Shown here in pieces: positions 13,684 through 34,070 of a stretch of DNA of 34,834 nt. The notes below the pieces were generated by a model. It ran no database searches, was not told the DNA's origin, and worked only from the letters and a program-made list of their open reading frames with translations. The stretch spans positions 1 to 34,834 of the forward strand of contig JABILI010000083.1 of NCBI GenBank assembly GCA_018654575.1, read 5' to 3'. The first letter of the stretch is position 1, and every line of letters starts with the position of its first letter. This DNA comes from Porticoccaceae bacterium (lineage in GTDB: Bacteria > Pseudomonadota > Gammaproteobacteria > Pseudomonadales > Porticoccaceae). The translations under genes were made by a program, and so were the position numbers.

Positions 13684-14373
13684 ATGATAAAACGAGTATT
13701 CCTGGGGTTGGTCGCCGTGCCTTTAGTCTTAGCGCTGGCCCTTTTTTGGCTCGGTTATTTCTCTAATCGACCGCCACTGACCATTGACCCAGTAACATTA
13801 GCGGGCGATGGAAGTACCATAAATTATTGTAACCTGCCTGAACTAAACAGTAGCGCCAAAATGGCCGCGGAGATCCCTAAAGGAAATACCCCTGGCTGTG
13901 GATACACTCATTTCCCACTGCCAGTATTAGCACAATGTACCGAACCTCTTCCCGAACAAGCGGATGATATTCGTGGTCTATGGCTTGGCGTAGGGGGTGG
14001 TCATACCGGCCATATTGAGCGTGTAGAGCAGTGTGGGAACCGCACTGTCGTGACATCCAACGGCCTTATTCATGATTATGGGCCAAACAGCACCGCCGGA
14101 CTAAACACCAATGATACTGAAGGCTCTGTGTTGTTTGTCGCTGGTGACAAAGAATACTGCATGCGCACGTCTGCCAGCATGATCTGGAACAATGGCGTGT
14201 TGGACTTCCATGCCTTTGGGTGGGGCCCAGTGGTGGTTAATCGATATAGAAAAGGCGAACAATTAGTCTGGGAATATGCCGATGGCAGCACCACCTATAT
14301 GAACAGAATTTGTACGTTGCCTTCAGAACACAAAGTGCCTTTGCCGCGAGGCAAACGTTATCGACTATTCTAG
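13684..14373 (+). CDS. membrane-anchored extracytoplasmic protein of unknown function
   Basis: Not recognised. It encodes 229 residues: a Lys/Arg start, one hydrophobic helix (about residues 5-26), then an extracytoplasmic domain with several cysteines (CNLP, GCGYTHF, AQCTEP, EQCGNR, EYCMR, RICTL) that could form disulfides. Gly-rich and Trp-rich segments such as IRGLWLGVGGGHTGHIERVE, FHAFGWGPVVVNRYRKGEQL and WEYADGSTTYMNR suggest a beta-barrel or lipocalin-like fold; this is a guess. AAGG lies eight bases before the ATG. A nine-codon open frame at 13658-13687 with GGGAAG upstream overlaps the start by ATGA and might couple translation. Neighbours are a nitroreductase and a Ser/Thr kinase gene. 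Confidence 0.75.
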   Translation: MIKRVFLGLVAVPLVLALALFWLGYFSNRPPLTIDPVTLAGDGSTINYCNLPELNSSAKMAAEIPKGNTPGCGYTHFPLPVLAQCTEPLPEQADDIRGLWLGVGGGHTGHIERVEQCGNRTVVTSNGLIHDYGPNSTAGLNTNDTEGSVLFVAGDKEYCMRTSASMIWNNGVLDFHAFGWGPVVVNRYRKGEQLVWEYADGSTTYMNRICTLPSEHKVPLPRGKRYRLF

Positions 14374-17697: not shown

Positions 17698-19437
17698 TTG
17701 GATATTTATACCCTTACGATAGCGATCAGCGTGGTTATCTTTATCGGCGTTGGCATATATGCTGGGCGCAGCGTTAGAAAGCTAGATGATTACTTTGTCG
17801 CCGGACGGCGGGCACCCACATTACTGATTGTTGGCACACTGGTCGCTAGTGTTTTCAGTACCTCGATTTTTCTCGGCGAAGCTGGATTTACCTATGACGG
17901 TCAATTAGGTCCCTACATATTAATGCCGGGGATCGCTGTGATTGGTTACGTTTATGGCGCGCTATTTTTTGGCACTTTTTTGCGGCGCAGTCGCGCAACA
18001 ACCGTGGCCGACTTCTTTGGTCAGCGTTTTAACAGTCACCGGGTTCAACAGGCGGCAGGCATGACGATCATTGTTGGTCTGGGCGGTTACTTGCTTGTGG
18101 TCACCCAGGGTGCAGCGATCTTATTGTCTGAACTAACCGGCCTGGGTTATTTCGAAGGCATAGTGCTAGCTTGGCTCAGTTATACCCTATTCACCATGTA
18201 CGCCGGTTCTAAGGGCGTGATCATTACCGACACCTTAATGTTTCTGTTGTTTTGCTTCGCCACTGTGTTTTTTGTCTTTTATGTTGTCGATGGAATGGGA
18301 GGCGTTGCGCAAGCCGTTGAAGACTTAACACTGGTCAAGAGCAAACCTGATATTACTGCCTGGCACGGCACCGTTGGCGCCGGCACTGAGTGGCCAACCC
18401 CAAGGGATTATCTCATTTGGACTTTAATCGTAGATATGTCCTGGGGCTTCGTTTATGCCGTGGGTCCTTGGCAATCGAGCCGGCACTTGATGGCGCGAGA
18501 CGAGCATGTCGTTATCCGCGCAGCGGTCTATGCTTGTATCGCTGTGGCACTAATGCAGATACTTATTTACGGTGTCGGCGGATTTATCAACCTAGCTAAC
18601 CCGAATATTTCGCCATCTGAAACCGTTATGATTTGGGCCGCCAAGAACCTGGTACCAACTTTTCTAGGGGCACTTTTGCTGGCTGGCATTATGGCTGCCG
18701 CACTGTCTTCTGCATCAACTTTTTTGTCTCTGATCGGCTTTAGTGTCAGCAATGACATTGTGGTGCGTAAGCAAGCATTGACACTGAGAGCCTCTCGTAT
18801 TGCCATGTTTACCACCGGCGCGGCTGTGCTGGTGCTGTGTTTTATTTTTCCGCCTAATGTGTTTTGGCTCATGATGTTCATCGGTACCGTTTTCGCATCG
18901 TCCTGGGGCCCGGTTGGCTTCATGAGTATCTGGAGTAAATCCATTACAGCTGATGCTGCTTTTTGGGGAATTTTGAGCGGATTTTTTGGCAACGTGATAC
19001 CCGCGTCACTCGAATACATGGGGCTAATAAGCCTGCCCAGCTATTTTAATCCGGCCCTGATTGGCGCAAGCATTAGCCTCTTAACGATTATCTTTATATC
19101 TAGAAGAGGCAATGTCACCACGCAAGAGGCAGAGTACCGCGAGCACCTCCACCGCACACCAGATGTCGATTATGATCTACAAAAAACCAAAACAACCCTG
19201 TGGGCACCGGCATTTTTAGTTATCTATGGCTGTGTGATGCCACTGTTGTTGATTAAGTATTATGTCATCCCCTATCAAACAGCCCTTGGTCAACTCCTGC
19301 CCGACGGCACCGTGGATTTATCGACTGGGGAATCTGTCTTGGCCATGCTAACCGCACCGGTCTACATTATTCTTGCCCTTATCGTCACCAAGGTGGTCTG
19401 GACTAGATATAGCCCACGCCCGCAAACAATCACCTAA
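17698..19437 (+). CDS. sodium:solute symporter (SSS family)
   Basis: Encodes 579 residues with a TTG start; CGGAG lies nine bases upstream and the frame begins MDIYTLTIAISVVIF. About 13 hydrophobic segments are seen. Family features: RKLDDYFVAGRRAPTLLIVG, the Na-site helix SVFSTSIFLGEAGF, FGQRFNSHRVQQAAG, and the helix LLLAGIMAAALSSASTFLSL, which carries the conserved Ser residues of the Na2 site. It couples uptake of a solute (sugar, acid or nucleoside) to Na+. The gene is complete, and its last 16 codons plus stop also occur at 28102-28150 as part of a 116-bp repeat. The upstream glycoside hydrolase suggests a sugar, but this is inference. Confidence 0.93.
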   Translation: MDIYTLTIAISVVIFIGVGIYAGRSVRKLDDYFVAGRRAPTLLIVGTLVASVFSTSIFLGEAGFTYDGQLGPYILMPGIAVIGYVYGALFFGTFLRRSRATTVADFFGQRFNSHRVQQAAGMTIIVGLGGYLLVVTQGAAILLSELTGLGYFEGIVLAWLSYTLFTMYAGSKGVIITDTLMFLLFCFATVFFVFYVVDGMGGVAQAVEDLTLVKSKPDITAWHGTVGAGTEWPTPRDYLIWTLIVDMSWGFVYAVGPWQSSRHLMARDEHVVIRAAVYACIAVALMQILIYGVGGFINLANPNISPSETVMIWAAKNLVPTFLGALLLAGIMAAALSSASTFLSLIGFSVSNDIVVRKQALTLRASRIAMFTTGAAVLVLCFIFPPNVFWLMMFIGTVFASSWGPVGFMSIWSKSITADAAFWGILSGFFGNVIPASLEYMGLISLPSYFNPALIGASISLLTIIFISRRGNVTTQEAEYREHLHRTPDVDYDLQKTKTTLWAPAFLVIYGCVMPLLLIKYYVIPYQTALGQLLPDGTVDLSTGESVLAMLTAPVYIILALIVTKVVWTRYSPRPQTIT

Positions 19438-19790: not shown

Positions 19791-20648
19791 CTAACCGCTG
19801 TGCTCATTGAGAAAGGCAATAGCCAGTGGATTGTAAAGTTCGGGGCGCTCGTGCTGCGGCCAGTGTCCACATTCTTCAAAAAGCTCTAGGCGCGAACCGG
19901 CAATATCTTTGTGCATTTTGTGTGCTTCGGGAACATCACCAAAGGGGTTTTCTCTTCCCCAAATAACCAAAGTAGGCGCGGTTATTTTCGCCAGATCTTC
20001 TGGTCTTAAAAGGTTGCGCTGGCGTATTGGCATTTCTTGCATACAGAGTAGGTTATGAATGTTTTTCACAAAATTGGGCTGGTGATAAATAGCGTGTCGA
20101 ACCTGCACTAACTCTTCGCTAACATTCTTTTCCCCATCGAACATCAGCAGATGTAAGCGCTTGCGCGTTAGTCCAATATCGTCTGATTTGACCGCTTTTG
20201 TGGTGCTTTCCTTGATGCGCTGCATAATTTCCGGATTGGCCTTGGTGCCGCCGGCTGCAATTAGCTGTAGGGATTTCACGCGCCTGGGATGATGAATTGC
20301 CAGCCAACCCGCGATCCAACCACCTAGGGATTCACCGGCGAAATGTGCCTTTTTAATACCCTGAGCATCCATATAGTCGAGCACATGCTTGCCGTACTTG
20401 GGGATCTCATAATTGGAATCTGGTTTATCTGTGTAGCCATGGCCAAGGGCATCAATAGCGTGGCATTTAAATCCCGCTTTGACGTGCGGCACAATATTGC
20501 GACAAAACGCCTCCAGATGACCACTGGTGCCGTGCATAAAGATGACGTCTTCGCCCTCACCGGCAATCAACGCTCGGGTTTTTACGCCACCGGCATTGAT
20601 CCAGTCGAGACGAAAGTCAATATCTGTTAAATCGGTCCAAATAGACAT
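19791..20648 (-). CDS. alpha/beta hydrolase (meta-cleavage product hydrolase-like)
   Basis: Encodes 285 residues and is the last gene of the minus-strand catabolic operon, 25 bp after the dioxygenase. Alpha/beta-hydrolase elements: oxyanion region FMHGTSGHLEAFCRN (residues 37-51), nucleophile elbow GESLGG with Ser107, the acid region WGRENPFGDVPEA with Asp238, and His262 in CGHWPQHERPE. The WGRxNPFGDVPEA and GHWPQ.E.P.YN segments are typical of MhpC/BphD-like C-C bond hydrolases found beside extradiol dioxygenases. The likely role is to split the 2-hydroxy-6-oxo-dienoate formed by ring cleavage. It could instead hydrolyse an ester or lactone, since the cassette holds a second member of the same fold. 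Confidence 0.88.
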   Translation of the reverse strand: MSIWTDLTDIDFRLDWINAGGVKTRALIAGEGEDVIFMHGTSGHLEAFCRNIVPHVKAGFKCHAIDALGHGYTDKPDSNYEIPKYGKHVLDYMDAQGIKKAHFAGESLGGWIAGWLAIHHPRRVKSLQLIAAGGTKANPEIMQRIKESTTKAVKSDDIGLTRKRLHLLMFDGEKNVSEELVQVRHAIYHQPNFVKNIHNLLCMQEMPIRQRNLLRPEDLAKITAPTLVIWGRENPFGDVPEAHKMHKDIAGSRLELFEECGHWPQHERPELYNPLAIAFLNEHSG

Positions 20649-20673: not shown

Positions 20674-21612
20674 TTATTCAGGCGGGGAAATTACCGCTAC
20701 AGCCATGCCTGTTAACCATTCTGGCATGGCGGAGTAGCAGAGTTTTTCTCCGGATTGGTGTCCGAGTGCAGCCGACATCATCAGCCATGCTCGGACTTCA
20801 TTGGCGCCGTTACCCGCCAGAGAAACGAGTTGGTCGTTACTAATTTGATTGGCAAATTGCCCCAGTGTTCCAGCTTCTATTTGTTCGAGAACGCGCAAAT
20901 CGAATGCCTCGTTAAGTTGCGGCGGCGCGTTGACAATAATCTGCCTGCGGCGCACTTCGTATTCGCTCCAGTTGTCGCGACCTTCTTTCCATGAATCGAC
21001 TAAAAATTCGTCGTTGGCAGATTCGGGCTTGCGCCAATCTGGAAAGGGCAGCTGATGAGATAGTCCGCCTGTGGCAATAACCGCCACGCGCATCCCATCT
21101 GGAAGAGTTTCGATGGCCTGAGCCAAGGATTCGCCAAATTGCAGGCATCTTTTTAGGCTTGGCAATGGCGGCGCAAAGCAATTGACCACCACAGGTATCA
21201 CTGGCAGTTTATCTTCGCCGACTATCCACTGTATGGCATGACTAATACCGTGATCCACCGATAGCTTGGTGGAGAAGGCTATATCGAAATCATCGGCTAT
21301 TATCTGATTGCAAATAGCCAGTGCCGCTTTTTTATCGACTTTTTGTGATCCGAACGGCGTGCCGTGTTCCCCAGCACAGTGCAATTCACCAACGCCAATG
21401 GAAAATGCGGGCATCATATCCAGCCAATAACCGCGAAAGTGATTGGAACCAATAATGACAACTGCATCGGGTTTCGCCGCATCTAGAATCGCGGCACTTT
21501 CGATCAATGCATCTCTGAACTGGTGAGCGCGCTGTAGGTGATCGACCTTGTCCCACTGGGTGTTCATCAATGTGGTATGAGAGGCACCAATACCCAAAAC
21601 AATCTTAGCCAT
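20674..21612 (-). CDS. LigB-type (class III) extradiol ring-cleavage dioxygenase
   Basis: Encodes 312 residues. Its start overlaps the stop of the M20-like gene by 8 bp, which indicates translational coupling. LigB-superfamily features: GIGASHTTLMN with iron ligand His12, VVIIGSNHF with His58, the central DHGISHAIQWI, PVIPVVVNCFAPPLPSLKRC, and GGLSHQLPFPDW. The C-terminal NGANEVRAWLMMSAAL corresponds to the helix found in MhpB and LigB relatives. The enzyme opens a catechol next to the diol with Fe(II) and O2. Its ring substrate would come from the flavin monooxygenase upstream. Protocatechuate/gallate-type and dihydroxyphenylpropanoate-type members cannot be told apart here. Confidence 0.9.
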   Translation of the reverse strand: MAKIVLGIGASHTTLMNTQWDKVDHLQRAHQFRDALIESAAILDAAKPDAVVIIGSNHFRGYWLDMMPAFSIGVGELHCAGEHGTPFGSQKVDKKAALAICNQIIADDFDIAFSTKLSVDHGISHAIQWIVGEDKLPVIPVVVNCFAPPLPSLKRCLQFGESLAQAIETLPDGMRVAVIATGGLSHQLPFPDWRKPESANDEFLVDSWKEGRDNWSEYEVRRRQIIVNAPPQLNEAFDLRVLEQIEAGTLGQFANQISNDQLVSLAGNGANEVRAWLMMSAALGHQSGEKLCYSAMPEWLTGMAVAVISPPE

Positions 21613-22963
21613 CTAAAACCTCCTGCTGCGAAATACCACAAACACTCAGAGCAATATGGATAAGCAGCTGGGTAAATTGATAGAGGTCATCCAGAGATAC
21701 GGCATTCATACCGAGTTGAAAATCCATATTCGCTAGATTGGCCTTGGGCAGACCTACTCTGGCAGTGGGCAGGCCATGGGCGCGCAATATATTGGCATCA
21801 GTGGCTCCGGAGGTAGACGTTATCGGCTGGTGTTGTTTATTGGTCACCGCCTCCCAAGATTGAATACTGGTTTGAATAATGGCTTGCTGGGCGTCTGTTG
21901 TGGTGCCAGGAATGGCAATCAAACGTTTGTAGTGAGCCGTTATACCCAATTCTTCACTAATCAATTTTAGTGCCGCGGCAAATTGCTGTTCGGCTTCATC
22001 AGGGGTGGTTTTCGGGCTGAGACGCAGGTCGACACGGAAGCGACAGAGTGCCGGAGTAAAAGCCGGCATACGCTGCCAACCGGATTCAATAAAGGCAATA
22101 ACGCCCTGAGGGGCGACTAACCCAGATCGATGTTTTTCAGGCCATGCTTGGAGCCAGATATCCAGTTTTTGCATTAACGCGGCGGCGTCCAGAATTGGAT
22201 TTTTATAGGGCATCAGGTGGCGTGAGCCCACATAGTTGTGAGCACCCTCAACGCTGACCTCAAACCAGATTAGACCCACTTCTTGCCACGACACAGCCCA
22301 CCCAGATTTGGCAATTAGGGCAGAGTCCGGCTGAAAACCCTGTTTTGAACCAAGTTCCAGCATACGTTGACAGCCGATACCGTGACCGGCACTCAAACCA
22401 GTCGCCCTTGCATTGGTTGGCATACCGCCGGCACCAAAACCCAGTAGTAAATCTGAATTCAGAGCGATACCCGCTGCGCGCAGGGTTCTCGCCGCTTCAA
22501 TAATGCAGGCGGCGTGTCCCTTTGGGTTGGACGCTCCTAGACCAAATAGGTGCTTGCCGTCAAAACGGCTTTTGGCCCGCGCTGCTGCGGGTAGTTCCGC
22601 TGCCAGCCAGGGCAAGTCTTCTTCAGCACTTGAGGAGGTCACGGTATCGATGGGCGCGTACAGCAGTAGGTTATTGCCTGAATCCGAGTGCTTACCGGCA
22701 ATTTTGCCGATTGCATTGGATTGTTTGCCGTCGATCTTTTGCTCTAAGCCGCACAAATCAAAATCGTTGAGCATAGCGGTAATATCACGCGCGAGCTCGG
22801 CCTCCTCTCCCGTGGGGGAAGCTACATCGACGAGTTTTTGCAAAATTGAGACCAGACTATCGCGACTAATTAGTGCCGATGCCCGATCAAAATGGCAATT
22901 AAAATCAAGATTCTGAGTCAATGGTTTCAGTCTCAACTGCAGTATCGTCACTACAGGAACCAA
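21605..22963 (-). CDS. M20-peptidase-like protein lacking the metal-binding site
   Basis: Encodes 452 residues from a TTG with GGA upstream; the true start is uncertain because no ATG lies near the N-terminus and similarity begins around residue 37. The M20/ArgE-DapE scaffold is intact: LVDVASPTGEE, LLYAPIDTV, HLFGLGASNPKGHAACIIEA, LLLGFGAGGMPTN, a dimerisation-type domain, and SGATDANILRAHGLPTARVG near the end. Ligand positions have changed: GHxD reads APID (His to Pro104), GASD reads GASN146, the catalytic DEE reads AGG (178-180), GEP-type Glu reads Lys219, and the last His is not evident. It is therefore probably not a zinc peptidase. It sits between a hydrolase and the dioxygenase in the operon and may bind or isomerise a ring-cleavage intermediate. 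Confidence 0.85.
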   Translation of the reverse strand: MVPVVTILQLRLKPLTQNLDFNCHFDRASALISRDSLVSILQKLVDVASPTGEEAELARDITAMLNDFDLCGLEQKIDGKQSNAIGKIAGKHSDSGNNLLLYAPIDTVTSSSAEEDLPWLAAELPAAARAKSRFDGKHLFGLGASNPKGHAACIIEAARTLRAAGIALNSDLLLGFGAGGMPTNARATGLSAGHGIGCQRMLELGSKQGFQPDSALIAKSGWAVSWQEVGLIWFEVSVEGAHNYVGSRHLMPYKNPILDAAALMQKLDIWLQAWPEKHRSGLVAPQGVIAFIESGWQRMPAFTPALCRFRVDLRLSPKTTPDEAEQQFAAALKLISEELGITAHYKRLIAIPGTTTDAQQAIIQTSIQSWEAVTNKQHQPITSTSGATDANILRAHGLPTARVGLPKANLANMDFQLGMNAVSLDDLYQFTQLLIHIALSVCGISQQEVLDG

Positions 22964-23016
22964 TCCAGGTTCCGGTCGAACAAATTAAAAAATCTCGAAA
23001 TAGGTCACCTAAATAA

Positions 23017-23904
23017 CTAAATGGATTCATGGATTATGTCCTCGGGTTCGGGTTGATCGAGAAAGGATCGCACAATATGGAAGTAGTGCTCTGGACGCTC
23101 TTCCTGCAAATGATGGGAGCTGGCATCGAGCACGTGCAATTGACCACGCTGTACCATGCGCGTGAGCATTAGCGGGTAATCGGGGGTAAGGAAGTCGTCT
23201 TGCAAGCCCCAGCAGAATAGCGTTGGGCACTGTACCTTGCCGAGCTCCTCAGTTAAGTCTTGCCAGTCGCCGCGCGGGCTATCGGAGCTGGCTGCCAGGC
23301 GCATTTCTTCGGCATCCAAACTCTGCAGATAGCGCATTGCGACCGTTTCATCTGGCAATAGGCCTGGGTTATACCATTCCAAACGGGCAATAAGTGCGCG
23401 CATTTTCTCCTTGCTGGGACCTTGACCACCGTAGTAGAGATCGCGGGCATTGCGACCGCGGCGCCCACCTTCGGGCAGCGGCGCCAAGGGGCCGTAAAAA
23501 ACTGGCATAGAGCCGGTCACAGTGAGCGAACGAGCTCGCTGTGGGTAGGTGGCCACAAAGCAGAGTGCAATGGTGCCGCCCCAGGAGTTGCAGACAAAAT
23601 CGGCGCGTTCAATCTCCAGCGCATCCATCAGTTCAGCCATGGAGCGCGCGTGGTGATCCCACATGGGACCTTCAATTCGGGATTTGTCGGATTTGCCGTA
23701 CTGCAATAAATCGGGCATAAGACAGCGACGATTTTCGGCAAACATAGGCGCTACCAAACCAAAATCCGACCAAGATGTACAGCCGGGGCCACCGCCGTGA
23801 AGCAAGAAAACCGGATCTCCCGCTCCCATTTCAATTAGGTAGTAACTGTTACTGCCCGCCTGCACATAGCGACCCTCGGGGGCTGGGTTCGGTATTAGGT
23901 TCAT
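23017..23904 (-). CDS. alpha/beta hydrolase (BphD/MhpC-like)
   Basis: Encodes 295 residues. The BphD/MhpC-type oxyanion loop LLHGGGPGCTSWSDFG (residues 34-49), nucleophile Ser107 in VCNSWGGT, acid Asp237 in CWGLQDDFLTP, and His264 in ASSHHLQEERPEHY form a complete triad. GGGPG with S-x-W-S is the strongest sign of a meta-cleavage product hydrolase in the cassette. It is transcribed after the Rieske gene with a 70-bp gap that contains a 20-bp perfect palindrome, and before the M20-like gene. Because a second hydrolase ends the operon, one of the two may handle a side chain or ester rather than the ring-fission product. Confidence 0.9.
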   Translation of the reverse strand: MNLIPNPAPEGRYVQAGSNSYYLIEMGAGDPVFLLHGGGPGCTSWSDFGLVAPMFAENRRCLMPDLLQYGKSDKSRIEGPMWDHHARSMAELMDALEIERADFVCNSWGGTIALCFVATYPQRARSLTVTGSMPVFYGPLAPLPEGGRRGRNARDLYYGGQGPSKEKMRALIARLEWYNPGLLPDETVAMRYLQSLDAEEMRLAASSDSPRGDWQDLTEELGKVQCPTLFCWGLQDDFLTPDYPLMLTRMVQRGQLHVLDASSHHLQEERPEHYFHIVRSFLDQPEPEDIIHESI

Positions 23905-23940
23905 CTTGCTTGTCCTCCATTAACTTCAGCAATAGGCTTT

Positions 23941-23960
23941 AAACCAGTTGCAACTGGTTT
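23941..23960. repeat. 20-bp perfect palindrome between the Rieske and hydrolase genes
   Basis: AAACCAGTTGCAACTGGTTT is a perfect palindrome. It lies in the 70-bp gap inside the operon, 14 bp past the Rieske stop and 36 bp before the hydrolase start. In RNA it folds as an eight-bp stem with a TGCA loop. It may act as a processing or stability hairpin, partial terminator, or regulator site. Confidence 0.85.
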
Positions 23961-23974
23961 CGGTGTCGGGCCAA

Positions 23975-25261
23975 TCATGGTTTTTCGCCTCCGCTCAGAA
24001 CGCGAACCGGCTGCTCTGGATTATCGTCGTCCAGCTCATCACCGCGAATAGGGTGTGGCTGGGAGAACAGCTTGCGCCATTCCATCAAGGAAACATCTGG
24101 GCGATAGAGCCGCTCTGGGGGGGCATTGGTTTCCGCCACCATCCAGTGATCTTGACCGGAGAAGTTGCCATGGAACATCCAACGGATTCCGCCGAGATAC
24201 CAGAGATAGAACAACCATTTGGATAAGCCTCCTTTAAACTGGAACATCAGGCCCACATACTTGGTGTGGTTGGCATCAATGGGCACATAAAATTCATAGT
24301 GAATGAAGCTTGGATAGACAATACGCAATACGCCGGGCATCGACAGGGAGGCAAAACCGGGAAAATTGCGCGATTCAATATAGGGGTTATTGCGTTTGGC
24401 GCCGCCAGTATTGCCCAGAAATTTTCCTTGTTTGTGCTTGGGCATAATTTTCCACCAACGCTTGTTGGTCCATTTGCCGACACCGGGGAATTCGGCCTCC
24501 CAGTAGCGTTCATCCTCAACCCTGTACAGCCAACGCCCCTGCTTTTTGATGTGAATTTTGTTCCAGGTTGGCATCACCTTAAAAATACGCCAGATGGAGG
24601 TGCGGTGCAAGTATTTTGCGTGCCCCTCATCGAAGCCATTTTCAGCGTAAAAACGCCAATTACCACTGCGATCTTCAATTCGGCCGCCCAGAGCATACTT
24701 GGGTGGATTAATCAGCTCTTCGGGCAGTTGATCTTCGAGTGCATGGGGTTTGCCCAGCCCCATATAAATCCAGATTAAACCGTGGCGTTCGCGCGCGGGA
24801 TAGGTTTGCACAGCAGCATTGCCACATATACGGCTGTCGGGGCCGTCGGTGATTACCGCCGCAACGTCACCGGTTTTTAGATCAAATGTCCAGCCGTGAT
24901 AGGGGCAACTGATGGTACCCGGCCACCATTGTTTACCCAAGGATATTTTTACCCCTCGATGGGGGCAGCGATCGTGTAGGGCTCGAATATTGCCGTCTTG
25001 ATCACGCATAACAAATAGATTTTTGCCACAGAGTCTGACCGCAACCGGTTTTTTCTTGACTTTGCGACCCCAGAGAACCGGGTACCAGTAGTCATGCAGT
25101 CCGGCTTCGGCCGCTTCGTAGTCCGGCCAGGCGTCCCAGTTTCGACCCAAGGCCATCTTTCTTCTGGAAAGCTTTTCTTTATCAGCATCACGCGCCGCAT
25201 TCTCAGTCATTTTTTTCACCATTTTGATAGATTGCAATCTGTCCTTGGGGCTTATTAGCAT
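23975..25261 (-). CDS. Rieske non-haem iron oxygenase, catalytic subunit
   Basis: Encodes 428 residues. The start overlaps the stop of the flavin reductase gene by 7 bp; MTENAARD at residue 18 is an alternative start. The Rieske 2Fe-2S site is Cys99-x-His101 and Cys119-xx-His122 (RCPHRG, SCPYHGWTFD). The catalytic iron site is the 2-His-1-carboxylate DEGHAKYLH, with Asp211, His214 and His219. The type resembles single-component-oxygenase families such as carbazole or ketosteroid hydroxylases, not the alpha-beta ring dioxygenases, and no beta subunit is present. The hydrophobic C-terminal WLFYLWYLGGIRWMFH is unusual and may touch a membrane. No ferredoxin or reductase gene occurs nearby, so electrons must come from elsewhere. 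Likely role: hydroxylation or demethylation of the substrate. Confidence 0.92.
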   Translation of the reverse strand: MLISPKDRLQSIKMVKKMTENAARDADKEKLSRRKMALGRNWDAWPDYEAAEAGLHDYWYPVLWGRKVKKKPVAVRLCGKNLFVMRDQDGNIRALHDRCPHRGVKISLGKQWWPGTISCPYHGWTFDLKTGDVAAVITDGPDSRICGNAAVQTYPARERHGLIWIYMGLGKPHALEDQLPEELINPPKYALGGRIEDRSGNWRFYAENGFDEGHAKYLHRTSIWRIFKVMPTWNKIHIKKQGRWLYRVEDERYWEAEFPGVGKWTNKRWWKIMPKHKQGKFLGNTGGAKRNNPYIESRNFPGFASLSMPGVLRIVYPSFIHYEFYVPIDANHTKYVGLMFQFKGGLSKWLFYLWYLGGIRWMFHGNFSGQDHWMVAETNAPPERLYRPDVSLMEWRKLFSQPHPIRGDELDDDNPEQPVRVLSGGEKP

Positions 25262-26208
25262 CCAAAGCCGGAAACCATGGCCTTTAAACTGGAACCCAGC
25301 ATTTGCCGCTGCTCCTTATCGAGGCTATTCAGCACGGTTTGTTCATGGTTTTTCGCAAATACAAACAGGCGCTCGGCAATATCGGAGCTAGACCGATTGA
25401 TGCGAATCACTTCATCGGATTCAATAACAAGGTAGTCGCGCTCGGCGAGTCGCTGCAGGCTGTAGCGACAGTCTTCTTCAGGCTGCATTACCAGAGCGGC
25501 CAGCTGACTGATGCCGATCGAGTCGACATCCGAGAGCGCCGTCAGTACTCGCCACTCTTCCGGAGAGATTCCAAATTCATTTCTAAGCAGCGGATAGAGC
25601 TCGCCCGAGTAACAGCTGTATGCACGATACAGTTGGTAGAGCAGATAATTGGGCAGAAAACCGTCTTCGGGAAGTTGCGCTGTCGCTTCTTTGGTGATCA
25701 CAGACTGCGGCGGCGATACCGCGTAGCTTCCACGGGCAAATACCAGCGGCATAACCGAGTCGCTGTAGCTGTATTCAATCACTTCGCCAACCACAATAAT
25801 GTGATCGCCGCCGTCATACAGATTCCAGGTTTTACAGCCAAAATAGGCGGCCGCTCCGGATAAAACCGGGCATTGACCAATGCCCGCTCGGTAATCGATT
25901 GCAGAGAATTTATCTTCTCCCTGTCTCGCGCAGGCATTTGAGATTGCAACCTGTTGCTTGCCAAGCACATTGACGACAAAGTTGTCGGCCTGTTCAAATA
26001 CGGTCGCACTGTAGGCCGTTTTGGCAACACTCCAGAGAATCAATGGCGGGTCTATGGACACAGAGTTGAAACTGCTCGCAGTAACACCGACGGGGTTACC
26101 ATTGGCATCCAGAGTCGTTATTACCGTGACGCCTGTCGGGAACTGACCCAATGCTCTGCGAAAACCTCTTAGGTCATCAGTTGGGTTTTTCACTATTTCC
26201 ACATCCAT
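25255..26208 (-). CDS. flavin reductase fused to a MarR-like winged-helix domain
   Basis: Encodes 317 residues from the ATG at 26208 (GGAG nine bases upstream), preferred over a TTG at 26223. The N-terminal half (about 1-165) is a flavin reductase of the HpaC/HsaB type: LGQFPTGVTVITTLDANGNP, VGVTASSFNSVSIDPPLI, NVLGKQQVAIS, and the NADH-binding GDHIIVVGEVIEYSYS. From about residue 180 to the end it has a MarR-like domain: YQLYRAYSCYSGELYPLLRN, ISPEEWRVLTALSDVDSIGI, SQLAALVMQPEEDCRYSLQR. This architecture is known in the C1 reductase of Acinetobacter 4-hydroxyphenylacetate hydroxylase, where the extra domain senses the aromatic substrate. It supplies reduced flavin to the neighbouring oxygenase. 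Overlaps the Rieske gene. Confidence 0.92.
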   Translation of the reverse strand: MDVEIVKNPTDDLRGFRRALGQFPTGVTVITTLDANGNPVGVTASSFNSVSIDPPLILWSVAKTAYSATVFEQADNFVVNVLGKQQVAISNACARQGEDKFSAIDYRAGIGQCPVLSGAAAYFGCKTWNLYDGGDHIIVVGEVIEYSYSDSVMPLVFARGSYAVSPPQSVITKEATAQLPEDGFLPNYLLYQLYRAYSCYSGELYPLLRNEFGISPEEWRVLTALSDVDSIGISQLAALVMQPEEDCRYSLQRLAERDYLVIESDEVIRINRSSSDIAERLFVFAKNHEQTVLNSLDKEQRQMLGSSLKAMVSGFGC

Positions 26209-26249
26209 TTGTAGGCTCTCCAATAGTTAGTTTTTATCCAAAACTTGTC

Positions 26250-27398
26250 TTACAGATATCCGGGCAGAGGGTCGTTTCCAAACATCATGGCGCCGGCATT
26301 CTGGTAGGTTATCTCACCCATAAATGCGTGCTGGGTGGGCATATGCGCATCTCGAAAGCAGCGCGATAGGCTATTTTCATGGTAGGCCGCTTCCATACCT
26401 GAAAGCTGATAGATGGTTTTTACCGCTGCGGCGCATTCACGCGTCAAATTTGTGGCGGACAGGCGCATCATGCTGATGGTCTGAGGATCTAATTTGTCCC
26501 CGCGGATGAGTATTTCCCAAGCATTTTCGATGGAGTCATAGAAAAACAGTCGCGAGGATTGAATGCGGGCTTCTGCCCTGGCAACTTCTATCTGCACATA
26601 GGAGCGATCGCCAATTCCGGGTGCACCTGTAGGCGACTTACGCGTTGCCGCGCTGTCCAGCAAAATATTCATTGCCGCACGGGCAACACCCAGTGTTGTA
26701 ACTGCCAATACCTGAGTCGCGATGCTTATAGTGGGATAGTTGAAGAAGGGGCCTTCCGGGGTGAGCTTGCCACCGCGTATAAAGCAGTGGTCAAAGGCAA
26801 CCTCAACATCTTTGACGATCAAGTCGAAACTGCCGCTGCCCGCCATGCCGTGCACATCCCAGGATTGCATATCAATCTCAGCATCTTTGCGATCGATAAC
26901 CGCCATCAATGGTAGTGAACCCTCCTTTTCCGGCTTGATTCCAACACCAACCCTATCCGCACCCATACAACCACTGCCCCACTTCCAACGGCCATTTAGC
27001 ATATAACCTTTGCCTGTGACTGGTGCAGAGTGAAGAGGAAACATGGCGCCGGCAAACACGTCGTCTGGGGTTTTCCAAATATCTTCCAGAACAGTCATGG
27101 GTAGACCGGCCAAATAGGAGTGCGTACAGCCGAAACTGGCAACCCAGCCAGCTGAGCCGTCAGCTTGAGAGATAGCTTCAATAGCTAACAGGAAATCAAC
27201 GGGCGATTTTTCATCGCCGCCGTAGGCGCGCGGAACAAATGCTCGATAAATACCCATCTGCTTGAATTGCTGAACAATATCTTCTGAAACATAGTGCTGA
27301 CGGCCAAATTCATCTGCTCTAACGCGGATCTCAGCTAGCAATTTGTCAAAAAAATCGGCTCCGCCCCAGTCCTTTTTATCTAATTCATAGCGTCCCAT
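26250..27398 (-). CDS. flavin-dependent monooxygenase, oxygenase component (acyl-CoA-dehydrogenase fold)
   Basis: Encodes 382 residues with GAGGAT upstream of the ATG; first gene of the operon. Acyl-CoA-dehydrogenase-like segments are visible: AFVPRAYGGDEKSPVDFLLA, ADGSAGWVASFGCTHSYLAG, GRWKWGSGCMGADRVGVG, SWDVHGMAGSGSFDLIVKDV, and the C-terminal IYQLSGMEAAYHENSLSRCF followed by RDAHMPTQHAFM. The catalytic Glu of true acyl-CoA dehydrogenases is not evident. This pattern matches group D monooxygenases such as HsaA and the C2 component of 4-hydroxyphenylacetate hydroxylase. These use reduced FMN or FAD from a reductase to add oxygen ortho to a phenol. The reductase is the next gene, 41 bp away. 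The likely product is a catechol for the LigB-type dioxygenase. Confidence 0.9.
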   Translation of the reverse strand: MGRYELDKKDWGGADFFDKLLAEIRVRADEFGRQHYVSEDIVQQFKQMGIYRAFVPRAYGGDEKSPVDFLLAIEAISQADGSAGWVASFGCTHSYLAGLPMTVLEDIWKTPDDVFAGAMFPLHSAPVTGKGYMLNGRWKWGSGCMGADRVGVGIKPEKEGSLPLMAVIDRKDAEIDMQSWDVHGMAGSGSFDLIVKDVEVAFDHCFIRGGKLTPEGPFFNYPTISIATQVLAVTTLGVARAAMNILLDSAATRKSPTGAPGIGDRSYVQIEVARAEARIQSSRLFFYDSIENAWEILIRGDKLDPQTISMMRLSATNLTRECAAAVKTIYQLSGMEAAYHENSLSRCFRDAHMPTQHAFMGEITYQNAGAMMFGNDPLPGYL

Positions 27399-27463
27399 CT
27401 TGAATCCTCATCTACCAAATTTATTGGTGTCCATTTATCGATCAGGGTGTTACCATTTCACTA

Positions 27464-27473
27464 TTCACGTGAA
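27464..27473. promoter_or_regulatory. palindromic operator candidate in the marR-monooxygenase divergent region
   Basis: TTCACGTGAA is a perfect 10-bp palindrome. It is part of a wider TTTCAC-N7-GTGAAA inverted repeat at 27456-27474. The site lies 66 bp before the monooxygenase start and about 135 bp before the MarR-gene start, a suitable place for the MarR regulator to control the operon. Confidence 0.5.
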
Positions 27474-27607
27474 AAGTAAAGTAAATTTATTTTAAGCAAT
27501 GTTGCATATTCTAAAAATACAGCTATTTACCGGCCGTGCTGTTGCGACAGAACCGCTATCATTTGCAATTTAAATAGTACTTGCGGCTAACAAAAAGGCA
27601 TAAAAAA

Positions 27608-28087
27608 ATGAGTGACTCAAAGGCACAGATTGATAACTACAAACCCACACATCCGGATTTTGATTTCCGCAAGTACCCCTTCTATTGGATTGCCTTAATT
27701 GACAATATTTACGCCCAGCGTATGGAGAAAACTTTAAAACCTCTGGGTTTGACTATCATAGGATGGCGCGTAGGTATGCTACTCCGCGATCACAATTCAT
27801 TAAGCGTTTCAGAGATATCCAAACATTCTGCTGTGAAACTTTCGACAGTGACGAAAACTGTTTACAGTATGCAAGAAAAAGGGCTGTTGAAGGTGCAACA
27901 AAGCAAGCAGGATGCCCGTGTCACTGAGGTGTCAATAACAGCTAATGGTCTGGCATTGCTTGAGAAAGTTTTGTTGGAAACAGCGGATATTTTTGACCGC
28001 GCCCTGAATGGCATCGGTGAGCAGGAGATACTCGAGATTAACGCGCTACTTGAACGGCTGTTTAATAATCTTTCAGATACCTATTAG
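27608..28087 (+). CDS. MarR-family transcriptional regulator
   Basis: Encodes 159 residues from the ATG at 27608 (MSDSKAQIDNYKPTHPDFDF); an upstream TTG at 27581 is less likely. The winged-helix core is LTIIGWRVGMLLRDHNSLSV, SEISKHSAVKLSTVTKTVYS with the recognition helix, then MQEKGLLKVQQSKQDARVTE and VSITANGLALLEKV, the standard MarR wing (D-x-R). Dimer helices flank this. It is divergent from the seven-gene catabolic operon and probably represses it until an aromatic ligand binds. It ends 11 bp before repeat copy 2, at the edge of the cassette. The MarR-like half of the flavin reductase is a separate sensor for the same pathway. Confidence 0.93.
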   Translation: MSDSKAQIDNYKPTHPDFDFRKYPFYWIALIDNIYAQRMEKTLKPLGLTIIGWRVGMLLRDHNSLSVSEISKHSAVKLSTVTKTVYSMQEKGLLKVQQSKQDARVTEVSITANGLALLEKVLLETADIFDRALNGIGEQEILEINALLERLFNNLSDTY

Positions 28088-29326: not shown

Positions 29327-31540
29327 GTGAATCATCAAATCAAACTTGTTGTTGTTGCTGGGTTAGTCATGTTGTTGAACGTTGCTAACGCCGCTGTACT
29401 TGACGAGGTTATCGTCACCGCGACCAAGCGTGGGCAGAGTGCGCAGGACGTCGGTATATCTGTGACTGCGCTCAGTGGGGAACAGACCGAAGCTCTTGGT
29501 TTGCACACCACTCAGGAAATCATTCAACAGATTCCTGGCTTGCAGGTTCAGTCGTTCACACCGGGGTTTACTACCTTTAACTTACGCGGTATTTCTCAAA
29601 ACAATTTCCAGGACAATCTGGAAGCGCCTGTGGCGGTGTATGTGGATGATATCTACTTTGGTAGTATGAACGCCGTCAACATGCAGATGTTCGACATGGC
29701 CGCTACCGAAGTATTGCGCGGCCCCCAGGGTACACTTTTTGGCCGCAACGCTACTGGCGGCTTGATTCATTTTCGTACCCGTAAGGCAGACGAAGATGAG
29801 TTCAATGGTTATGCCAAAGCCTCCTTTGGCGAACGAAACAATAACGTGGTGGAAGGTGCCGTAGGCGGAGCGCTTAGTGACAGTGTCCGTGGCAGAATCG
29901 CTGGCCGTTGGGAACAAGCTGATGGTTATGTAGAAGCAGGGAGGGTTGCTGCAGGTGTGCTCGGCCCCACAGGATTTACCGCCGCCGGTAGCGATGCAAT
30001 CGGCGCTGATGGTTTTGTTTTACGCGGCAATTTGCAAATCGATATTTCGGATAGAACCTCCTTGGATCTTTCTGCAACGCGTACCGAGGATGATGATGTC
30101 GCCTCAGGACATTATGTAGTTAGATTTACGGGTGCAGACCCGGACACACTTTTTGGCCTGGAAAATGGACCTGTGATTACCGGAGATGTGCATAGACACG
30201 CCTCGGATGTCACTGATACAGGTTTAGATCGCGATAGCACTGTCCTGAGTTTTCATCTTCGTCACGAGTTTGACAGCGGCATGCAGTTGGATTACATCGG
30301 AGCCTTTCAGGATGTGTACAAGTTTAATAAGGAAGACGCTGGGGGTGGATTAGTGTTTTTCCCTTATTCCACCGAAGCGGATTACGAACAGCAATCCCAT
30401 GAGTTTCGTTTGTCAGGGGAAACCGAGAGCTTGCGCTGGCAGTCTGGCCTCTATCTGCTTGATATCGATTATGTTGGTCAGGCACGCACTGGTGGACCGG
30501 CTATTATCGGTGATCCTACCGGTGTCGTCATTCAGGATACTGACCTGAGTTCCGAAAACTGGTCAATTTTTAGTGAAGTAGAGTATGATTTATCTGATAG
30601 TTTAACCGTAATAGCAGGTGCTCGTTGGTCTCAGGATGATAAGGAAATCAAATTTATTAACACTGCCAGCAATTTCAGCGCGGCTGCAGGACTACCTGAT
30701 GGTACCGTCTTGTTTGATCTGCAAAGTGCCATTGGCGCAAGTGCAAACCCCGCGCACGCCAAAGTCGATGAGATTGATTACGGTGATGTGGCTACGCGCC
30801 TGCAGTTGAACTACCAAGTAGAAGATACCTTGATTTATGCCTCGATTAACCGCGGTATCAAGGGCGGTAACTGGTCACCCTCCTCTGCGGTTACATTGGA
30901 TGACCTTCGGCATGATGAAGAAGATCTAATGGCCTACGAATTGGGTTACAAAACCACCGTACTGAATGGGACTGGTCGATTGAACGCCTCCATTTTCTAT
31001 TATGATTATTCCGACTACCAAGCGTTCTCGCTGTATGGGGGTACGCCTCAAGTAACCAATGAGGATGCCAGTGCTTCGGGTGGCGAAGTAGAATTTGCCT
31101 ATATGCCCAATGACCACTGGGACTTTAATTTCGGTTTGGCCTATATGGACTCGGAAGTTGACTTCATTCCAGGTGTGGTCCCTGGCAGTGGTAACACAGA
31201 TGTGGAACTCCCGCAGGCTCCAAGTTTGAGTGCAAATCTGCTGGTAAGGTACAACACGGATGTGGCTGGCGGTAATTTGGCTTTGCAGCTAGATGGGAAT
31301 TGGAACGATGATCACTATATGGAAGGTTCTAATTCAATCGCATCAGTGCAGGAAGCATATACCGTGCTTAACTTCAGGACTTCTTATACGATGGATAACT
31401 GGGAAGTATCAGCGTGGGTCAGGAATTTGACCGATGAGGAATATCTTCTGTACAACCTGGATCTGGGTTTTATCGGGTTTGTAGAACAGGTTTATTCAGC
31501 GCCTCGACAAGCAGGTCTTACCCTGAGTATGGATTTCTAA
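29327..31540 (+). CDS. TonB-dependent outer-membrane receptor
   Basis: Encodes 737 residues from a GTG start with AAGGAG upstream. There is a signal peptide (cleavage after NVANA, residue 22), a TonB-box-like DEVIVTATKR at 26-35, the plug domain with LRGISQNNFQDNLEAPVAVY and VLRGPQGTLFGRNATGG, and a 22-strand-type barrel ending in the aromatic residue of GLTLSMDF. Family and barrel match iron-unrelated TonB receptors of catabolic loci in marine proteobacteria. It would carry a hydrophobic or bulky substrate across the outer membrane, and its place upstream of a Rieske oxygenase and an MFS transporter supports a compound other than iron. It is controlled by the adjacent TetR protein. Confidence 0.95.
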   Translation: MNHQIKLVVVAGLVMLLNVANAAVLDEVIVTATKRGQSAQDVGISVTALSGEQTEALGLHTTQEIIQQIPGLQVQSFTPGFTTFNLRGISQNNFQDNLEAPVAVYVDDIYFGSMNAVNMQMFDMAATEVLRGPQGTLFGRNATGGLIHFRTRKADEDEFNGYAKASFGERNNNVVEGAVGGALSDSVRGRIAGRWEQADGYVEAGRVAAGVLGPTGFTAAGSDAIGADGFVLRGNLQIDISDRTSLDLSATRTEDDDVASGHYVVRFTGADPDTLFGLENGPVITGDVHRHASDVTDTGLDRDSTVLSFHLRHEFDSGMQLDYIGAFQDVYKFNKEDAGGGLVFFPYSTEADYEQQSHEFRLSGETESLRWQSGLYLLDIDYVGQARTGGPAIIGDPTGVVIQDTDLSSENWSIFSEVEYDLSDSLTVIAGARWSQDDKEIKFINTASNFSAAAGLPDGTVLFDLQSAIGASANPAHAKVDEIDYGDVATRLQLNYQVEDTLIYASINRGIKGGNWSPSSAVTLDDLRHDEEDLMAYELGYKTTVLNGTGRLNASIFYYDYSDYQAFSLYGGTPQVTNEDASASGGEVEFAYMPNDHWDFNFGLAYMDSEVDFIPGVVPGSGNTDVELPQAPSLSANLLVRYNTDVAGGNLALQLDGNWNDDHYMEGSNSIASVQEAYTVLNFRTSYTMDNWEVSAWVRNLTDEEYLLYNLDLGFIGFVEQVYSAPRQAGLTLSMDF

Positions 31541-31557
31541 TGGACTTGGGTTAAGAC

Positions 31558-32826
31558 ATGGTCGCAAGTCAGGTTCCGAACCTTGAGCTGGAAAAATTGA
31601 TCAAAGTTGCTCGTCAGGAACCTGGCAGGGCATTGGAGCAAGAATTCTACTCAGCACGTGAATTTCACACTGCTGATATGCAAGCTGTGTATAGAAAGCA
31701 GTGGTTATTGGCAGGACACGTATCCAGTATTCCTGAGAGAGGACAGTATTTCCTTTTTGAAATAGACAAAGAGTCGATCATCATCGTCAGGGAAAACGAA
31801 GCCAGCGTAAATGCATTTTACAATGTTTGCCGTCATCGTGGTTCCCGGATCTGTCTTGAAAGGGAAGGTCGGCGCAAACTATTGACCTGCCCGTATCACG
31901 CCTGGACTTACAGCCTGGACGGAACGCTAAAAGTCGCGAGGTTAATGCCGGAAGACTTCAAGAAGGAGGAATACGGTCTCCGTGCGTGCCATATAAGACT
32001 GTTCGAGGGGCTAATATTCATCAACTTGTCTAATGGTACCCCCCCTGATTTTGATGAAGCCTATCGAAGCATGTTGCCACTTGCCCAGCAGCAGGGATTG
32101 GCGACCGCCAAAATTGCCGTCAAGCAGCGTTATCCCACCAGGGCTAACTGGAAACTGGTCGCGGAGAATTTCATGGAGTGTTATCACTGCCAGTCTGCTC
32201 ACCCGGAATACTGCGCGGTACATCCACAGGATCAGCTTTTGGCCGTTGGTGCTGGACCAGGTTCGGGCTCGGGCGAAGACGCCGCTGCATACCAGCCCAT
32301 TCTTGATTTGTGGGAAGCGGAGTCTGCAGCCATGGGATACCTGAATGACATGATAGATGCAGGAGTATTGAGTCTGGGCATGCAGCAAGCGGCTCGCTAT
32401 CCCATCAATTCAGATAAAGGTTTCTTATCCGAAACGATAGACGGCAGACCTGCTTGCAAAAAGTTGATGGGTGATTTCAAGCAGGCAGATGGTGGAGAAA
32501 CTGCCCTGGCGTTCAACCCATTCAGTTACGTTCTGGCCAGTAATGATTTTGCAGTCATGTTTCGTTGGACTCCTCAAGATGAAATGAATACCGATGTAGA
32601 AGTCACCTGGCTGGTACATGAAGATGCCGAGGAGAATGTCGACTATGACCCGCGTAATGTCGCTTACGTATGGGACACGACACTCAAGCAGGATAAGAAA
32701 ATTACCGAAGATAATCAATCGGGAGTGTGCTCAGAAAGTTATCAACCAGGTCCCTATTCGACACAGGAAGCACGTAACGTTGTCTTTAAGCAGTGGTATT
32801 TGGATCAATTAGAATCGTCGCTTTAG
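31558..32826 (+). CDS. Rieske oxygenase alpha subunit with Glu at the bridging position
   Basis: Encodes 422 residues, 17 bp after the receptor gene. The Rieske site is Cys91-x-His93 and Cys111-xx-His114 (NVCRHRGSRI, LTCPYHAWTYSL). The iron site reads ENFMECYHCQSAHPEY, with His210 and His215, and with Glu207 where most Rieske oxygenases have the bridging Asp. This is also the case in carnitine oxygenase CntA. The overall type is the GbcA/CntA/stachydrine-demethylase group that acts on N-methyl or related compounds. It may remove a methyl group as formaldehyde. The reductase is not present in the window. Shared regulation with the receptor and the MFS gene is likely. The substrate is unknown. 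Confidence 0.92.
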   Translation: MVASQVPNLELEKLIKVARQEPGRALEQEFYSAREFHTADMQAVYRKQWLLAGHVSSIPERGQYFLFEIDKESIIIVRENEASVNAFYNVCRHRGSRICLEREGRRKLLTCPYHAWTYSLDGTLKVARLMPEDFKKEEYGLRACHIRLFEGLIFINLSNGTPPDFDEAYRSMLPLAQQQGLATAKIAVKQRYPTRANWKLVAENFMECYHCQSAHPEYCAVHPQDQLLAVGAGPGSGSGEDAAAYQPILDLWEAESAAMGYLNDMIDAGVLSLGMQQAARYPINSDKGFLSETIDGRPACKKLMGDFKQADGGETALAFNPFSYVLASNDFAVMFRWTPQDEMNTDVEVTWLVHEDAEENVDYDPRNVAYVWDTTLKQDKKITEDNQSGVCSESYQPGPYSTQEARNVVFKQWYLDQLESSL

Positions 32827-32930
32827 TAAATTCATCGCGCTTGGAAGATGCTAAGTGCAGTAAATCGAAGTCGGTACTAAATGAATGGCATCAATACCAG
32901 CCTTTTCCATCCCAACAGGTAGTGACATAA

Positions 32931-34070
32931 ATGATTAAACCTCATCGCTTAGTTCCTCTCTATTTGGGTGGAATAATGATGCTGGGGCTTATGGGCACCT
33001 ATACCATTCCCTTTGTAATTGGGGCGTTCATTGATGGCTTGGGCATGAACGCCCAGTCTGCGGGTGCCTTGGGTACCGTGGAGATTTTCAGTATCGCAGT
33101 GTCTGCGCTAACACTATCACGGGTACTGACACCCTCGAATTTGAGAAGGATAAGCGCTGTGGCGATTGTCCTTTGTATTGTAGCTCAAGCCCTCTCATCG
33201 GTGACCACCAGTTATCACGGGCTGGTGATACTCCGCTTATTGGCTGGCGTCGCGAGTGGAGCCTTATTGGCTGTTGTGAATATGGTGATCGCAACGTCAA
33301 GATCACCGGCATCACTATACGGCTGGGTGTTCGCCATAGCTTCATTAGGATTCGCAATAATGCTCACGTTTCTACCCTACAGTCTTGCGTTTAACGGACA
33401 ACAAGGACTATTTATAGCTATTACGTTCATCTGTCTGCTTATTTCCCCGCTGACTTGGATGCTACCAAAACCATCTTTTGCAGATACAGGTCAGGCAGAA
33501 AGGCAGAGTAGTCAAGACAGTTCGGCTTTCCTTATTGGCCTATTTTTCCTCGCCTTGACGATTGTTTATCTGATGATGGGCGGAGTCTGGTCTTTTAGTG
33601 AACGAGTGGCCAATAATTTGCTTATTGAACAAGATGCGATTGGTTTGTTGCTGGGACTGTCGACATTGACAGGTGTCATCGGTGCCATTTCAGCGGGTTT
33701 CCTGGCTAAGGCCGAAAGATTAACGACTCCAGTAGCCCTGGGATTTGTGGTAAGCGGAATCTCTGCGGTTGTAATAGCGCAGTCGGGTGATCTCGCCGTT
33801 TATTCCATCGGTATTCTTCTCTATGGCTACTGCTATATGTTTACCGTCACTTTTGTGTTGGGTATTGCCGCGGCCCTGGATTCAGCTGGCAGAGTAGCTA
33901 TAGCCACCAATGCTTACTTAATGATTCCTTATTCACTTGGCCCGGTAGTATTTGGTATCGCCGGCCTGGGTAACATATCAATACTTGGCTGGATATCCCT
34001 GGCAGGTTGCGTTCTGGCGGTATTAATTATTTTTCCTGTTAGCAGAAGAGCTGAACGTCACAGCCCATGA
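32931..34070 (+). CDS. major facilitator superfamily transporter
   Basis: Encodes 379 residues with about 12 hydrophobic segments in two groups of six and a polar central loop near residues 180-200 (PKPSFADTGQAERQSSQDSS). It is a compact MFS protein. A conserved pair of Gly-rich stretches (LRLLAGVASGALLAVVNMVI; YGYCYMFTVTFVLGIAAALD) lies in helices 4 and 10. It follows the Rieske gene by about 100 bp on the same strand and probably takes the substrate across the inner membrane, complementing the TonB receptor. No specific subfamily is recognised. A following stretch of about 230 bp up to 34301 holds only weak hairpins and no gene. Confidence 0.88.
   Translation: MIKPHRLVPLYLGGIMMLGLMGTYTIPFVIGAFIDGLGMNAQSAGALGTVEIFSIAVSALTLSRVLTPSNLRRISAVAIVLCIVAQALSSVTTSYHGLVILRLLAGVASGALLAVVNMVIATSRSPASLYGWVFAIASLGFAIMLTFLPYSLAFNGQQGLFIAITFICLLISPLTWMLPKPSFADTGQAERQSSQDSSAFLIGLFFLALTIVYLMMGGVWSFSERVANNLLIEQDAIGLLLGLSTLTGVIGAISAGFLAKAERLTTPVALGFVVSGISAVVIAQSGDLAVYSIGILLYGYCYMFTVTFVLGIAAALDSAGRVAIATNAYLMIPYSLGPVVFGIAGLGNISILGWISLAGCVLAVLIIFPVSRRAERHSP

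Follow-up and report, generated by a model that had tools for sequence, protein, structure and literature searches.

A widespread M20-fold clade with replaced metal ligands, its divergent member in a Porticoccaceae ring-cleavage operon, and a possible role in nitrogen removal from N-heteroaromatics

An open reading frame (ORF) in an aromatic-degradation operon of a Porticoccaceae bacterium encodes a protein that appears to keep the M20 metallohydrolase fold without its metal site. The stretch of DNA that we analyzed, hereafter the window, is contig JABILI010000083.1 of assembly GCA_018654575.1, positions 1 to 34,834. Alignment and a predicted structural model place the window protein on a long branch within a distinct and widespread M20-fold clade, whose ligand positions hold fixed non-ligand residues. 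Most of the clade genes that we examined accompany orthologs of the Rieske oxygenase 2-oxo-1,2-dihydroquinoline 8-monooxygenase (OMO), a reductase, and an amidase whose catalytic triad is preserved. Reasoning by analogy, we consider it a serious though tentative possibility that the clade, acting with the amidase and perhaps independently of any metal, strips hydroxylated N-heteroaromatics of their nitrogen ahead of ring cleavage, and that the window protein performs a like step on a related N-aromatic compound.

All five positions that bind metal in M20 enzymes (His, Asp, Glu, Glu/Asp, and His) are replaced in the window protein, by P104, N146, G180, K219, and L417. The original prediction had described these changes as APID (P104, D106), GASN146, A178-G179-G180, K219, and a last His that was not evident, and our analysis bears this out, with the position of the last ligand His aligning with L417. 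Homologs with the same motifs were then sought and found. When the window protein was aligned with relatives from 80 loci, P104, N146, G179, G180, and K219 were identical in 81/81 rows, while residue 417 was Gly in 80 and Leu in the window. G179 replaces the catalytic Glu that precedes the second ligand. Also fixed in every row are D106, T107, P147, K148, E156, M181, P182, D213, Y244, T388, D389, R402, and M419, and Y102 is likewise invariant. These loci were retrieved by the peptide patterns LYAPID or GLG[SA]SNPK and are the best 80 of 159 relatives, which biases the set towards similar sequences. Because the patterns span the stretches around P104 and N146, these two residues were partly selected for; G179, G180, K219, and 417 lie outside the patterns. 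Relatives found by whole-protein search, without patterns, gave a similar picture: four genomes (G065, G192, G214, and G304) have P, N, G, G, and K, a fifth (G079) has Ala at 104 together with N, G, and G, and a fragment from a sixth (G167) covers only P104. Residue 417 is alignment-dependent, being A, F, or L in pairwise comparisons with the pattern-free relatives, and never His. Since the replacements are conserved across many genera and the scaffold is kept, they point to selection rather than decay, as originally proposed.

The ORF runs on the minus strand for 452 codons from a TTG start at 22963. Pfam recognizes Peptidase_M20 in its product (28.8 bits against a cut-off of 24.6), and the NCBIfam DapE-ArgE model scores 64.5 bits, below its cut-off of 217.6. 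The predicted model shows an M20-type fold with a catalytic and a lid domain, at a mean predicted local distance difference test (pLDDT) score of 87. Residues 1-13 were modelled at pLDDT <50 and no ribosome site is clear by eye at the TTG, so the start codon is unsure. On the plus strand over the same interval, frame 1 is closed by many stops and another frame holds a 167-codon ORF (22413-22916). The overlap of 8 bases with the gene for a LigB-type extradiol dioxygenase, on which the original prediction had drawn, is real (21605-21612), and an AGGAGG lies just upstream of the LigB ATG. A pseudogene or sequencing artefact is ruled out by the open 452-codon frame, the confident predicted fold, and the replacements fixed in all aligned rows. 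A loss peculiar to the window genome is likewise ruled out, as 80 relatives have the same replacements.

The nearest solved structure, whether by sequence, profile, or structure, is 5-nitroanthranilate aminohydrolase, NaaA (PDB 5k8m-5k8p). The scaffold had been assigned to the ArgE/DapE family; the M20 fold stands, but the closest kin is this aromatic aminohydrolase, and the ArgE/DapE (M20A) deacylases are more distant, differing from the clade in all five metal-ligand residues and the catalytic Glu. NaaA resembles the clade in having Asn at the bridging-Asp position and Gly for the first Glu of the Glu-Glu pair. It differs in that identity is about 20%, that the Pro, Gly, and Lys of the clade correspond to His, Glu, and Glu in NaaA, and that its Arg289 is replaced by Phe or Ala in the clade, aligning with Phe302 or Ala301 of the window protein. 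Going by their PDB titles, Mn and Zn complexes of NaaA have been solved, as has the R289A mutant with a tetrahedral intermediate bound. In the accessible part of PMC4539516, NaaA belongs to aromatic catabolism and hydrolyzes an aromatic amine to a phenol. The changes at 146 and at the first Glu also occur in further metal-bearing relatives (L010, L011, L109, and L110), so the clade-specific changes are those at 104, 180, 219, and 417. Two of these relatives, L109 and L110, are NaaA-like with motifs GHLD, GSFN, GE, and GEP; they were found without patterns and sit outside the clade's operons, next to a fumarylacetoacetate-hydrolase-like gene, and L011 has a similar M20 protein. A more distant relative, annotated as peptidase M20 and carrying AHLD and GE motifs, lies on an Acinetobacter baumannii plasmid (L003:9328-13822) beside genes for an MFS transporter, an LLM flavin oxidoreductase, an isochorismatase-type hydrolase, and a flavin reductase, which looks like a heterocycle-breakdown cassette. 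Our literature search on metal-independent M20 proteins led nowhere.

A search of genome contigs with the single window protein found no relative, and 390 genomes of the window's order yielded relatives at about 33% identity. An alignment of these order relatives with a Cupriavidus plasmid protein was the basis of the pattern scan of the genomes of 84,980 species, which gave 254 candidate stretches, 159 of which encode relatives. The kept relatives include Neptuniibacter, Aromatoleum, Zoogloea, Cupriavidus, Paraburkholderia, Pseudomonas, Stutzerimonas, Thauera, and sphingomonads, as well as metagenome-assembled genomes (MAGs) labelled Myxococcota and Binatota, although public records of MAG contigs may be mistitled. 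One record titled as a Klebsiella pneumoniae MAG (L051) has the same M20-like protein and apparently the same 95,835-base contig as G065 from the window's order, and its label is probably wrong. The gene is rare, being present in 0/49 same-genus genomes in a sample of relatives. Some M20 match at E 0.001 was found in 15 of the 390 order genomes, and seven of these belong to the erased clade by their residues (the window, G065, G192, G214, G304, G079 with two contig-end fragments, and G167 with one). Among the other eight, L010, L011, L012, L015, and L016 have His at 104 and L018 has Asp at 146; in L014 and L017 the informative positions are not covered. The family profile run over 369 genomes sampled across the whole class (E 1e-40) returned nothing beyond the window and two relatives that bear the metal ligands, and searches of viral contigs and phage records were unproductive. 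Pfam calls M20 in just 16/58 clade members at E 0.001, so the clade is easily overlooked. Within it the window protein is an outlier, at 27-33% identity.

We clustered and mapped the ORFs of the 80 loci, naming cluster representatives by Pfam and NCBIfam. Three layouts recur. In Paraburkholderia and Cupriavidus the order is Rieske, reductase, M20-like, amidase, and a zinc-dehydrogenase-type gene is common in loci of this type. Sphingomonads and some gammaproteobacteria have hydrolase, Rieske, reductase, BphC, amidase, M20-like. In Pseudomonas and others we found AraC, Rieske, amidase, reductase, M20-like, a racemase-type gene, a second amidase, SDR, BphC, and hydrolase. Neptuniibacter and Zoogloea have the amidase plus the M20-like gene. 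Neighbors were counted by BLAST at E 1e-8 over half the query, a threshold that admits members with as little as about 24-30% identity, and 37 of the 80 loci are truncated where their contig stops. Among the 43 loci >21 kb, the amidase is present in 42, the reductase in 36, the Rieske of the cluster in 35, and a BphC-type dioxygenase in 21; over all 80 the corresponding numbers are 73, 63, 54, and 37. The Rieske protein of one locus (L052) matches OMO (PDB 1z01) at E 2.5e-255 and that of P. alkylphenolica, whose OMO operon has its M20-like gene at L091:10001-11296, does so over its full length at E 2.7e-286; in 49/80 loci the Rieske protein is at least 68% identical to that of L052. At the genome level, OMO at >=64% identity occurs in 5 of the 390 order genomes, and all five have the M20-like gene. 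Weaker Rieske matches occur with and without it: G079 has two at 44% identity and an M20-like gene, and G261 and G329 have matches at 43-45% and no M20-like match.

By alignment, the neighboring amidases keep the Ser-Ser-Lys triad. In amidase cluster 3 (for example L052:11334-12731 and L099:6641-8041) all 38 members have GASSSG in place of the usual GGSSxG, with the triad kept. Quinoline-2-oxidoreductase-like genes are close by in just a few loci; molybdenum-hydroxylase genes (large-subunit-like) are found at most about 10 kb away from the M20-like gene in L028, L029, L032, and L090, and in only these 4 of the 80. None of the loci has a second M20-like ORF, but their retrieval by the erased-motif patterns would have passed over any operon of this kind that carries a metal-bearing stand-in with the normal ligands.

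These neighborhoods recall the quinoline pathway, which we describe here from the accessible parts of the cited papers. Quinoline is converted to 2-hydroxyquinoline, 2,8-dihydroxyquinoline, 8-hydroxycoumarin with release of NH4+, and 2,3-dihydroxyphenylpropionate, which undergoes meta-cleavage; a lactone-opening step is also needed (PMC9029321). 8-Hydroxycoumarin is reduced by XenA (PMC5519977), and in another strain the medium-chain dehydrogenase HcdE reduces 7-hydroxycoumarin (PMC7913881). In the open-licence literature that we searched, as far as its text was accessible, no hydrolytic enzyme or gene is named for the ammonium-releasing step, which is not a claim of its absence from print. 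The operons of the relatives resemble this route, of the type of Pseudomonas putida 86 (OMO, XenA, 2,3-dihydroxyphenylpropionate cleavage), in having OMO and lower-pathway genes and, in two loci, an MhpB above cut-off. The quinoline cluster of P. putida 86 was reportedly described in a 2004 paper in Gene, which could already mention these genes.

As the usual partners of the M20-like gene are Rieske, reductase, and amidase, its product would act before ring cleavage, in a step that involves nitrogen. Besides the alpha/beta hydrolases, the recurring hydrolase-type genes are the amidase and the M20-like gene, and the nearest kin of the latter hydrolyzes an aromatic amine; from this we infer aryl C-N cleavage. 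On the route to 8-hydroxycoumarin, the nitrogen of 2,8-dihydroxyquinoline (8-hydroxy-2-oxoquinoline) leaves as ammonium. We suggest that the M20-like protein and the amidase may carry out this nitrogen-loss step, the aryl C-N bond most likely being broken by hydrolysis in the fashion of NaaA. If the M20-like protein acted first, on the lactam with its ring still closed, the amidase would be left with a primary amide; in the opposite order, the amidase would open the lactam and the M20-like protein would act on the resulting amine. Going by conservation, we would guess that Lys219, at the place of the former glutamate ligand, supplies positive charge instead of the metal, and that Asp106 serves as acid/base. 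In the window, the Rieske and flavin monooxygenases would hydroxylate a related N-aromatic compound, the M20-like protein would perform the same kind of step, and LigB would afterwards cleave the catechol, whose product the alpha/beta hydrolases would cut. That the window protein is a diverged relative acting in this way on another N-aromatic is the weakest link of the proposal. A fuller evolutionary version appears doubtful to us, although conceivable: a metal-independent clade arose on the M20 fold from NaaA-like ancestors, with lysine for the metal, for hydrolytic aryl C-N cleavage in quinoline degradation, and the window version was rewired to another N-heteroaromatic with class III ring cleavage. 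If nitrogen removal is indeed the function of the clade, the ammonium release of the quinoline (8-hydroxycoumarin) pathway could be assigned a gene, and a metallohydrolase fold would have been turned into a fixed, widespread metal-less family and not a decayed pseudoenzyme. The natural hydrolases of the nucleophilic aromatic substitution type named in the accessible part of PMC11903332, among which NaaA chemistry is grouped, rely on a metal hydroxide or a covalent aryl ester, which would make a metal-free relative of NaaA mechanistically interesting.

The same comparison also weighs against the proposal, as do several other observations. The chemistry of NaaA is described as proceeding by this group of mechanisms and the clade should be without metal, and the loss of its Arg289 in the window protein (Phe302 or Ala301) indicates that more than the metal is gone. 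We know of no activity for any member of the clade. Close OMO relatives are missing from 31/80 loci, some owing to a contig end, and four of the five order genomes with OMO are of one genus and hence not independent. The window protein sits on a very long branch, its join with G079 was flagged by the tree program as possibly false (the tree omits L010), and it lacks the near-fixed clade residues H48, H108, W221, and Q387. The window genome (G000) has no OMO match at E 1e-60; the window's Rieske protein is closer to the carbazole dioxygenase CarAa and is not an OMO ortholog. Among the seven operon proteins there is neither a Fer2-type reductase nor an amidase. The genome, which is 97.6% complete, has a single Amidase-family protein, on contig C23, with 35% identity over part of an operon-type amidase, and this may be the housekeeping GatA. 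With neither the operon nor apparently the genome offering a partner amidase, the substrate of the window protein is uncertain. Pyridine-ring cleavage of 2,8-dihydroxyquinoline has, moreover, been ascribed to a dioxygenase gene 'hdo' in the accessible part of PMC11945285.

The near-constant presence of the amidase, which often adjoins the M20-like gene and keeps its triad next to a protein whose own site has no metal ligands, could alternatively mean that the amidase alone hydrolyzes and the M20-like protein is a non-catalytic or co-catalytic partner that holds the substrate or the amidase in shape. We regard this as unlikely. The window operon has kept the M20-like gene without an amidase, the only Amidase-family protein of the genome being encoded on another contig, and the fixation in all 81 rows of Y102, D106, N146, K148, K219, Y244, and D389, several of them beside the old ligands in the sequence, is more than a scaffold seems to need.

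Two further readings are improbable. The clade could consist of metal enzymes after all, with a new site built from other residues, and most members do have His residues absent from NaaA at the aligned places: H108, right after APIDT, in 77/81 rows and H48 in 78/81. However, no His or Cys is common to all 81 rows, and the window protein has A48, V108, R200, and W226 at the His-rich positions, so it at least could not use them. The other reading, close to that of the original prediction, makes the protein an isomerase, lyase, or binding protein for the ring-fission product that acts with the LigB dioxygenase, in line with the translational overlap of the two genes. The window LigB, used as query, matched in only 3/80 loci (L079, L060, and L090; 37 of the 80 are truncated by a contig end), whereas BphC-type genes occur in 37 and the Rieske, reductase, and amidase are steadier partners; on this count we reject a LigB partnership as the role of the clade. 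The LigB-type proteins of L079 and L060 pass the cut-off (467) of one MhpB equivalog model; that of L090 scores 364.6 on this model and passes only another, with 356.4 against 291. L060 also has a hydratase, an aldolase, and an acetaldehyde dehydrogenase.

M20 enzymes in general hydrolyze amides, and the pathway requires a lactone opening, yet a hydrolase that opens the lactam (C2-N of the oxoquinoline) or the lactone (dihydrocoumarin) and leaves the aryl C-N bond untouched is slightly less probable still, since the neighboring amidase would be expected to take care of amide hydrolysis and the closest relative of the M20-like protein hydrolyzes an aryl C-N bond.

The window operon runs on the minus strand from 27398 to 19791 and encodes seven proteins (Table 1). 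It differs from the 8-hydroxycoumarin route in having another Rieske oxygenase, a two-component flavin monooxygenase, and no amidase.

Table 1. Genes of the window operon and flanking genes
Feature	Position	Strand	Basis or remark
SSF-family symporter	17698..19437	+	Convergent with the operon; putative pathway link only
Alpha/beta hydrolase, BphD/HsaD-like	19791..20648	-	Pfam, NCBIfam
LigB-type (class III) extradiol dioxygenase, MhpB-like	20674..21612	-	Best PDB 8k04 (MhpB), E 9.5e-37
M20-fold protein, erased metal site	21605..22963	-	Pfam, predicted model, alignment
Alpha/beta hydrolase, HsaD-like	23017..23904	-	Pfam, NCBIfam
Rieske oxygenase, carbazole-dioxygenase/2-oxoquinoline-monooxygenase type	23975..25261	-	PDB CarAa E 1.8e-38, OMO E 5.2e-27
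Flavin reductase, p-hydroxyphenylacetate 3-hydroxylase reductase-like	25255..26223	-	Weak C-terminal MarR-like match
Flavin monooxygenase, acyl-CoA-dehydrogenase fold, HsaA/p-hydroxyphenylacetate (HPA) hydroxylase oxygenase-like	26250..27398	-	
Divergent MarR-type regulator	27581..28087	+	

The best NCBIfam models for the window LigB are of MhpB types (170.5 bits, below every cut-off), and it has no match >34% identity in 94 relatives. The G+C content is 0.50-0.53 in 21001-27500 and 0.45-0.49 in the rest of the window, which includes the last two operon genes. Given this higher G+C and a LigB without a close match, part of the operon may have been acquired. A promoter and terminator scan of the operon gave fewer matches than shuffled sequences. 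Elsewhere in the window, the ORF at 13684-14373 has no family match, and the region 29327-34070 may be a cassette of its own for uptake and hydroxylation, encoding an MFS transporter, a TonB receptor, and another Rieske oxygenase, whose best PDB match is a ring-hydroxylating dioxygenase (E 3.5e-79).

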